NCBI RefSeq assembly: GCF_028618555.1
Contig: NZ_JAQITD010000001.1
Coordinates: forward strand, 248,001 to 312,000
DNA: 64,000 bases
DNA from: Bartonella sp. CM31XJBT
GTDB lineage: Bacteria; Pseudomonadota; Alphaproteobacteria; Rhizobiales; Rhizobiaceae
Direction: 5' to 3'
A program made the position numbers and the translations under genes. Each line of letters starts with the position of its first letter. Within the stretch, counting starts at the first letter, position 1. Under the pieces are notes generated by a model. It searched no databases. It saw nothing but the letters and a program-made list of their open reading frames with translations, and was not told where the DNA came from. Positions 28,003-51,927 of this stretch are shown here, piece after piece.

Positions 28003-28221
28003 TCTCTCGTACTATTTTCCTCTACGCAAAACCCTATACAAAAACATTGTATCTGTTTTTTTCTGTTTACATGTCTGAGTGCACAATTACGCTCTACCCC
28101 TTCATGCGTAAGTGTCTTTGCTGTTATAAGTTCCTTGAAAATACCGAATAGCTTACACAATATGATAATCATTTTAAATGATTTCAAGAAAAGAGGAGAG
28201 ATTTTAGAAAAACAAAAAAAT

Positions 28222-28252
28222 AAAAAGGCTGCAGAAGAAATCAATGCAGCCT
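28222..28252 (-). terminator. Intrinsic terminator (sit operon and/or small RNA)
   Basis: On the minus strand AGGCTGCA (28252-28245) pairs perfectly with TGCAGCCT (28233-28226) across an 11-base loop, and a run TTTTATTTTTTT follows. It sits about 160 bases beyond the sitD stop and forms the third hairpin of the candidate small RNA. Confidence 0.9.
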
Positions 28253-28340
28253 CTTAATTAAGAATGCAGTGTTGGGGGGGGAGAAAATATACTGCACTCA
28301 CCTGCTAGATATTAGGAGGAAAAACAATCTAGCACCCCGA
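28222..28340 (-). ncRNA. Candidate trans-acting small RNA with anti-Shine-Dalgarno loops
   Basis: Reading the minus strand from about 28340, there are three consecutive stem-loops. Stem 1 has 8 bp (28334-28327 with 28310-28303) and its loop contains CCTCCT. Stem 2 has 6 bp (28296-28291 with 28270-28265) and its 20-nt loop contains TCTCCCCCCCC. Stem 3 is the perfect terminator hairpin with a U-run. The length of about 118 nt, three hairpins and C-rich loops match the build of rhizobial small RNAs such as the alpha-r14/NfeR1 and AbcR groups. A promoter is only weakly visible (TTGTTT, 17 bases, TAGAGT). It could instead be a processed 3' UTR of the sit operon. Confidence 0.55.
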
Positions 28341-50907: not shown

Positions 50908-51444
50908 TTACACTCTTATCCGACGTCTTTCAGATATTGGTTGAAATGCTAGCTTAGCATGAAAGGCACAATAGGGGCTACTTTCATCAGAATCTGCACC
51001 ACAAAAATGAAAATCTGCTGATAATGGATCGCCAACCGGCCATCTACATGTATTTTCACTCAATTGTAGAAGATTAAGTTGACGTGATATAGGCACCACT
51101 ACATTGGATTTTGTGGACATATCAACTTCTTTTACATCTTCCACTACAAATTCTGTCTTTAAAGCTGTTTCTTCAATACTTACAGATGATGTGTTTATTG
51201 GCGATACCGTGGATGTGTTGCGACGCACACGTGGAGATGATGGGCTGCTGCTTCCCACGGGAGTTTTTTGCGCACGCGTGCTTCCTTGAGCTGTCTTACC
51301 ACGTCCTGGTAACTTTAATCGATGTACTTTGCCGATGACTGCATTTCTGCTGACCCCACCTAATTGAGCAGCAATTTGACTTGCACTTAACCCTTCACTC
51401 CAAAGCTTTTTAAGAAGCTCAACGCGTTCACATGTCCAACCCAT
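50908..51444 (-). CDS. gcrA: Cell-cycle regulator GcrA
   Basis: GcrA is an alphaproteobacterial transcription factor that works with sigma-70 at promoters methylated by CcrM (GANTC) to drive S-phase genes. The 178-residue product has the helix-turn-helix domain (WTCERVELLKKLWSEGLSASQIA, about residues 3-25) and GGVSRNAVIGKVHRL. A Ser/Thr-rich linker leads to the C-terminal sigma-interacting domain (CRWPVGDP and SPYCAFHAKLAF). Many homologs have Asp or Glu at the Cys5 position, a mild oddity. The leader contains a perfect hairpin, and argD is divergent. Confidence 0.95.
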   Translation of the reverse strand: MGWTCERVELLKKLWSEGLSASQIAAQLGGVSRNAVIGKVHRLKLPGRGKTAQGSTRAQKTPVGSSSPSSPRVRRNTSTVSPINTSSVSIEETALKTEFVVEDVKEVDMSTKSNVVVPISRQLNLLQLSENTCRWPVGDPLSADFHFCGADSDESSPYCAFHAKLAFQPISERRRIRV

Positions 51445-51927
51445 ACCAGCACTCCATTCCGATTACGTCACTAAGATGCTCTCCCCCGTTGCATCTTCAA
51501 ATGTTTAAATAATGTTTTCATTACGCTGAATGAAAGAACTTTACACTCTAAACGAGCATAAGAAAATCATCCAACCTGTGGACTTACAAATCAAAACACA
51601 TCATCTTGCTTATTACATTGTAAATTACAATATGCACTCACTCTATGACAAGAGTCTTTACCTCTTGAAGAGTTTATTTAGAATGTTTTCCCCAACTTGC
51701 AAATCAATCATAGGTTAAACTTTCACTTTTGTTTAAGGCTTTTCCCCAAAATGCTTATTTGTAGAACCTTCATTGACTTTTTTTCAATTGGTGTAATGAT
51801 CTATTCTATAGGTGTAATCACTAATCGTAATGAAATGTTGAAAGCACCGTAACGAAATGTACCATGCTATTTTATTTGTAGTGTTGCTTTGTATATATAT
51901 TGAAAAGGTTAAAATATAAAGGGAATT
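51445..51927. other. gcrA-argD divergent intergenic region
   Basis: These 483 bases separate two divergent genes and should hold both promoters. The strongest structure is the gcrA leader hairpin at 51473-51497. The rest is AT-rich, and I saw no confident regulator site for argD. Confidence 0.6.
51473..51497 (-). promoter_or_regulatory. Hairpin in the gcrA leader with G-rich loop
   Basis: On the gcrA strand AAGATGC (51497-51491) pairs perfectly with GCATCTT (51479-51473) around the 11-base loop AACGGGGGAGA. No T-run follows, so it is not a terminator. It lies 29 bases upstream of the gcrA ATG. The loop GGGGGAGA is exactly complementary to TCTCCCCC in a loop of the candidate small RNA at 28222-28340. 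Confidence 0.6.

Follow-up and report, generated by a model that had tools for sequence, protein, structure and literature searches.

A putative conserved RNA hairpin in the gcrA leader of Bartonella and its loop complementarity to a diverged ar14 small RNA

The leader of gcrA in Bartonella carries a hairpin that is probably a conserved RNA element of the genus, if it is transcribed. In the genome analysed here, its loop is complementary to a loop of an ar14-type small RNA (sRNA). A pairing between gcrA and this sRNA would be lineage-restricted at best, and we treat it as a candidate contact. The best explanation of these patterns, which we hold tentatively and at somewhat less than even confidence, is that the conserved leader hairpin would act in cis and that the complementarity to the sRNA would be a by-product in part of the genus.

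The gcrA leader hairpin across the genus

We analysed a stretch of 64,000 nucleotides from Bartonella sp. CM31XJBT (the window), whose positions are counted from its first letter. The open reading frame at 50908..51444 on the minus strand (178 aa, ATG at 51444) is presumably gcrA, a name taken from the preliminary description that fits by resemblance. Relatives of this gene were found in 150 of the 151 genomes of the family that were searched. The minus strand reads AAGATGC-AACGGGGGAGA-GCATCTT from 51497 to 51473, i.e. a perfect 7-bp stem (AAGATGC/GCATCTT) with an 11-nt loop at -53 to -29 from the gcrA ATG. Both sequence and fold agree here with the hairpin reported in the preliminary description. 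The whole conserved hairpin (51469..51503, minus strand) adds a lower 4-bp stem, CATT/AGTG, where many relatives have AATG in place of AGTG. Its loop contains the complement of the second loop of the sRNA, GGGGGAGA (51480..51487, minus strand), which is not conserved. The hairpin alone (39 nt) folds better than its shuffles (z = -2.2), an advantage that the 71-nt leader lacks (z = -0.3). An intrinsic terminator was rejected as an identity for this element, since it lacks a T run and a terminator scan of the region found none. A match to a sigma-70-like promoter lies at 51735-51707 on the minus strand, in a region with six such matches on both strands versus 2.5 expected, so this match tells little about the promoter position. 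Another contig of the same assembly (G000:C2:5522-6171) holds an identical second copy of window positions 50911-51560, which span the gcrA coding sequence and leader. It may be an assembly duplicate, because the estimated contamination of this assembly is 6.05, and it was excluded from the set of leaders.

We could read the gcrA leader in 66 of the 71 genomes of the genus; four had no leader match and in one (G057) the leader ran off the contig. The nine most diverged leaders were excluded from the stem alignment, which comprises 57 leaders (55 distinct sequences) from the same 57 genomes in which the sRNA was found by DNA search. MAFFT misaligned a few of its rows, e.g. G002, G007, G008 and G048. 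The 6-bp core of the stem is paired in 91.8% of 330 cells (55 distinct sequences), and 3, 28, 5, 37 and 12 of 500 shuffles reach its five measures. Including the lower stem, the 10-pair hairpin is paired in 92.4% of 550 cells over the 57 genomes; four of the five measures are reached by none of 500 shuffles and the fifth by 14, in a control that is lenient for related sequences and overstates significance. When the partner is slid by one to three columns, pairing drops to 28-47%. The covariation score of the 10-pair hairpin is 0.246, versus at most 0.085 in the slid controls. Two-sided changes show no such excess: we observed 10 cells in six pairs, and the slid versions give 7-19 cells in three to seven pairs. 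Hence, the case for the hairpin rests on the kept pairing and on the score. RNAalifold predicted no structure on the alignment of the 57 leaders. Because of this, and because the shuffle control is lenient, we regard the hairpin as likely rather than certain.

A count by hand found the conserved stem to be the best-scoring one of its zone in 42 of the 57 genomes. It is not the best in the remaining 15 (e.g. G015, G043, G042, G010, G037 and G002); in only a few genomes does the best stem join the 3' arm to the downstream GAGGT, giving an alternative hairpin. The fastest-changing columns are those of the loop, with 12-14 parsimony steps at -40, -38, -37 and -36.

A diverged ar14 small RNA

The sRNA lies at 28220..28340 on the minus strand of the window (28340-28222 as the original candidate). 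It matches the model of the ar14 (NfeR1-type) family, RF02344, over model positions 1-123 with 29.4 bits (E = 5.5e-4), i.e. along the full length of the model at a score below the gathering score of 58.8. The predicted fold has three hairpins, the last of which is a terminator with a U tail (-35.3 kcal/mol, z = -3.4). A DNA search found this sRNA in 57 of the 71 genomes of the genus. The match to the model from end to end, the fold and this distribution bear out the candidate sRNA of the preliminary description. Its first loop holds CCUCCU, of anti-Shine-Dalgarno type (28314..28319, minus strand), and this motif occurs within the first 60 nt in 55 of the 57 genomes. By sequence and fold, the second loop is occupied by UUUUCUCCCCCCCCAAC; at 28277..28284 on the minus strand it reads TCTCCCCC / UCUCCCCC, the start of an expanded C tract. 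The loop 2 region contains CUCCUCCC in 16 of the 57 genomes, and in most others a longer C tract; 14 of these 16 genomes have a size of at most 1.9 Mb.

Matches to ar14 with an E of 0.01 or better occur in 40 of the 71 genomes, a count made with strict filters from which the window's own copy is absent. Fourteen of the 71 exceed the gathering score (72.7-87.2 bits); calling these genomes basal or diverged reflects their divergence, not a tree. We compared the locus of the window with that of one of these 14 genomes (G003, 83.1 bits). In G003, about 1 kb separates the ar14 from an ABC permease upstream, and the window sRNA follows the same permease, likewise on the same strand; the two permeases share 73.6% identity over 277 aa, and the next neighbour is inverted in G003. 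The window sRNA thus sits where a distant congener has a full-scoring ar14. The likeness to ar14 and NfeR1 also includes the three predicted hairpins with a terminator, the C/U-rich unpaired loops and the full-length model match (family features as described in the available part of PMC10746234). The same source places CCUCCUCCC in the unpaired part of each hairpin of the family and reports that its founder, NfeR1, uses such motifs to pair with the translation start regions of mRNAs and so silences them. The window sRNA differs in this respect: its loop 1 has only CCUCCU, its loop 2 is a C tract and its third hairpin is without the motif. It is a homologue of ar14 by descent, which we call diverged, and not a filed member of the family, because its score is below the gathering cut-off and the family motif is not kept in each of its hairpins.

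No enrichment in transporters was obvious by eye among the best predicted targets at Shine-Dalgarno sites in our sample. No paper in the literature searched mentions ar14 along with both Bartonella and sRNA as whole words, and the main texts of RNA papers on Bartonella bacilliformis and B. henselae name neither ar14 nor gcrA (PMC7717549, PMC5387305). Two publications in that literature name both gcrA and Bartonella; as far as their available parts tell, one deals with Dinoroseobacter and the other with gene transfer agents. Additional copies of ar14 were also observed in the genus. A second, lower-scoring ar14 lies elsewhere in 13 of the 14 full-scoring genomes (G003, G004 and 11 others), and one small genome of the genus has two neighbouring ar14-type matches (G008:C1:174279-174374 and 174539-174643).

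Complementarity between the two loops and its precedents

The preliminary description proposed a kissing-loop pair between the gcrA hairpin and the sRNA. Its core stands: GGGGGAGA in the gcrA loop and UCUCCCCC in loop 2 of the sRNA are exact complements, giving eight Watson-Crick pairs, and the sRNA stretch has a predicted unpaired probability of 0.85. The additional G-U that it mentioned can form, but its G is where the 3' arm of the stem begins, so the stem must fray. We also confirmed its caution that C-rich loops match many G-rich sites by chance. The 2.35-Mb genome contains GGGGGAGA at 68 sites and the reversed control at 69, i.e. the 8-mer is not enriched. Among 311 leaders (taken as -100..-1), 38 contain an 8-nt complement of either sRNA loop, versus 17.8 in block shuffles. 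The complement lies within a possible hairpin loop (stem of at least 6, G-U allowed) in six leaders, versus 1.25 in block shuffles. The match between the gcrA loop and the sRNA exceeds chance only mildly. By accessibility-corrected helix energy, gcrA ranks fourth of the 311 genes (-14.6), which were sampled from 464 kb (the 64-kb window plus 400 kb in 20 stretches of 20 kb). This ranking is home-made and distinct from IntaRNA or CopraRNA: it considers contiguous helices only, with approximate Turner-type stacking values and simple ORF calls. Across the whole genome, some tens of genes would be expected to score as well as gcrA.

Two sRNAs described in other Alphaproteobacteria provide precedents for such a contact. 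The first, EcpR1 of Sinorhizobium, was put forward in the preliminary description and proved a poor analogue, with another position, another motif and a box that is absent from the leaders read in the genus. EcpR1 pairs with gcrA of Sinorhizobium meliloti at -109..-95 via UCCGCCGCAUCU (as given in the available part of PMC4414408). The likeness is that an sRNA loop pairs, here putatively, with the gcrA leader upstream of the Shine-Dalgarno (SD); the sRNA, its motif and the site are different (PMC4414408). The available parts of two papers list EcpR1 relatives for other families of Rhizobiales and not for Bartonellaceae (PMC3927594, PMC4414408). A TGCGGCG box that could serve EcpR1 occurs in none of the 66 gcrA leaders of the genus. 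Elsewhere in the family, 21 of 28 leaders have it, these 28 being the ones given as loci among 148 genomes of other genera with a gcrA match. As UCCGCCGCAUCU is also missing from the ar14-type sRNA, we rejected both an EcpR1 homologue and an EcpR1 site as far as these motif searches reach. The genome has two exact CCGCCGCATC sites, one antisense in an ORF that we take to be ilvD and one inside an ORF region that is highly repetitive (420-1631 of locus L205, contig C23). In many leaders of other genera of the family (L157-L184), inspection by eye revealed a shared block, CTAG..TGCGGCGGA..CTAGTCACC, over the EcpR1-type site at about -115 to -95 of gcrA. A hairpin displaying this site could form between the CTAG repeats on either side.

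CcnA of Caulobacter is a better precedent than EcpR1. A CCCC loop of CcnA protects GGGG in the 5' UTRs of gcrA and ctrA, and for gcrA the contact is supported by probing and EMSA; a compensatory exchange of the loops failed to restore binding (all in the available part of PMC8959179). In the window, too, a C-rich sRNA loop with CCCC faces a G-rich stretch with GGGG in the gcrA 5' UTR, if the hairpin is transcribed (compare PMC8959179). The Bartonella case differs in that the sRNA matches ar14, that the G-run sits in a conserved hairpin loop and that the contact is a prediction from sequence. It also differs in lacking a visible ctrA counterpart in the window genome. The leader of a presumed ctrA-like gene, considered as a second target, has its nearest GGGG at -164.

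This precedent suggests a reading in which the C-rich loop of the ar14-type sRNA would bind the G-rich loop of gcrA and alter GcrA translation in the lineages with an expanded C tract. We consider it possible and on balance rather unlikely. It draws on the eight Watson-Crick pairs between sites that are both predicted accessible, on the rank of gcrA among the sampled genes and on the Caulobacter contact, but the failed compensatory exchange in that species and the distant GGGG of the ctrA-like leader weigh against it. So do the location of the site, about 24 nt upstream of the SD, and the six of 311 leaders with an equally long loop match.

The distribution of the match in the genus is the main difficulty. 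Only two of the 57 genomes having both parts carry GGGGGAGA in the gcrA hairpin loop. In a third (G054), a different 8-nt match extends by one base into the 3' arm of the stem. The G loop of three more genomes matches over 7 nt, in one case again with that arm base included, and four further 7-nt matches fall outside the G loop. An 8-nt match to the loop 2 region of the sRNA occurs in the leader zone of 5.3% of the genomes, versus 2.7% after shuffling. The loops of close relatives read GGGGAGA, GGGGAA or GGGAAA, and others read GGAAT, ACAAGA or AGAAA. Hence, the gcrA loop shifts while the C tract of the sRNA stays, and the two loops are not jointly conserved. The preliminary description had named a change in one loop and not the other as evidence against its proposal, and this is what we found at the level of the genus. 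Its kissing pair thus retains the hairpin, the complementarity, the sRNA and a favourable energy rank, and loses the conservation of the match.

A looser association between the two loops is more favourable to the CcnA-like reading. A G-run of at least 3 in the loop zone occurs in 29 of the 39 genomes whose sRNA has a C-run of at least 5, versus 3 of the 18 others (Fisher p = 1e-4, ignoring relatedness); the other 10 of the 39 are without GGG. The rank correlation between both runs is 0.42 (p = 0.07) inside the window's clade of 19 genomes, 15 of which have GGGG or longer in the loop zone, and 0.55 outside it (p = 3e-4, uncorrected). Independent contrasts give r = 0.30 (p = 0.025) versus r = 0.06 when the upstream stretch of each leader serves as control, with a sign count of 26 to 14, but the measure was picked after the data were seen and the tree was made from the two loci themselves. 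The pairs of loops found in the same genome score slightly better than swapped pairs, with a mean of -4.68 versus a permutation mean of -4.36; 1.8% of the permutations reach the former when relatedness is ignored. This association across the genus keeps the idea of pairing alive. A general inflation of G/C runs was rejected as its cause, as the lineages with expanded C tracts show no significant excess of such runs elsewhere (rho = 0.20, p = 0.13). Separately, a run of eight Gs at about -150 of gcrA in one genome (G001) pairs with the C tract of the sRNA over 10 nt, including G-U.

Possible roles of the hairpin in cis

The SD of gcrA is GGAG at 51452..51455 on the minus strand, and the 3' arm of the hairpin, when free, could pair with the extended GGAGTGC. 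We held the left arm of the hairpin open by a folding constraint in the 57 genomes. In the constrained fold of the window strain, the 3' arm (AGCA-U-CUU) pairs with GAGUGCU, and the predicted openness of the SD drops from 0.69 to 0.30. The openness is also lower in 16 of the 19 genomes of the window's clade. Averaged over all 57 genomes, it declines from 0.59 to 0.49 (Wilcoxon p = 0.006, ignoring relatedness): 32 are lower, 21 higher and four equal, i.e. 25 of the 57 show no effect or the opposite one. As the SD columns are nearly invariant, the alternative pairing with the SD shows no covariation.

These predictions are consistent with a leader hairpin acting in cis. Once folded, it would keep its own 3' arm (GCAUCUU/C) from a possible pairing with the extended SD, GGAGUGC. 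Folding suggests that the ribosome site of gcrA would thereby be open by default. The loop would then be a purine-rich, fast-changing spacer, and the 8-nt complementarity to the sRNA may have arisen as one loop turned G-rich and the other C-rich in some lineages of the genus. A contact between the two RNAs, if real, would be a lineage-restricted addition and not the reason why the hairpin is conserved; a kissing contact limited to the loop would leave the hairpin closed.

We consider it unlikely that the stem is a palindromic or compositional accident and that neither hairpin nor pairing is functional. Such an accident would account for the lack of enrichment of GGGGGAGA in the genome, the small excess of 8-nt matches in the leader zone over shuffled ones (5.3% versus 2.7%), the 71-nt fold that is no better than shuffled and the two-sided changes that are no commoner than in slid controls. 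It is at odds with a stem whose pairing is kept, at a fixed position, in much of the genus.

The sequence directly 3' of the hairpin suggests another role in cis. GTG-ACG-TAA (51463..51471, minus strand) is a two-codon ORF, in frame with gcrA, that we describe as a hypothetical minigene. A start-NNN-stop is found at -26 to -28 in 51 of the 57 aligned leaders and at exactly -27, in frame with gcrA, in 46; at offsets outside -30..-24, the best count is 11 of 57 and the mean 0.28. The base that starts the ORF changed nine times among A, G and T and is never C, the first base of the stop is invariant, and 56 of the 57 leaders have A or G as its second base. Various codons stand between start and stop (AGG, ACG, AGA, ATA, GAA and others). 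Two-codon minigenes are known to act in cis on the next gene, e.g. in axe-txe (as described in the available part of PMC8708949). The Bartonella ORF resembles them in its start-codon-stop layout and in preceding the main gene in the same reading frame (PMC8708949), and differs in that it is recognised by conservation of its sequence only. Translation of this minigene, or ribosomes occupying it, could tune gcrA, with the G-rich loop as its weak SD. Positional conservation argues for this, but we regard it as decidedly unlikely. The lower stem of the hairpin also accounts for the start codon, changes between A and G are transitions that are likely anyway, and the next base outside the ORF is equally invariant. 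Moreover, no clear SD was seen by eye where the loop is not G-rich, and the start-NNN-stop is missing from all nine of the most diverged leaders.

One may also combine these elements. In a derived Bartonella ar14, an anti-Shine-Dalgarno loop would have become a C tract that kisses the gcrA hairpin loop, such that another sRNA family would have independently re-invented the contact between CcnA and gcrA, on a hairpin that guards the SD and is followed by a conserved minigene. As a whole, we find this scenario quite improbable. A protein-bound DNA palindrome instead of an RNA element would agree with the scarcity of two-sided changes but fits less well, since the arms stay paired through changes, which is a better match to RNA.

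The cell cycle of Alphaproteobacteria has GcrA as a master regulator, and different sRNAs already target the gcrA leader, EcpR1 in Sinorhizobium and CcnA in Caulobacter. A third sRNA contact, or a hairpin acting in cis in leaders without the EcpR1-type box, would, if true, show how often this control point is rewired. In addition, a conserved sRNA of Bartonella can now be linked to a named family, which opens the way to work on its targets.
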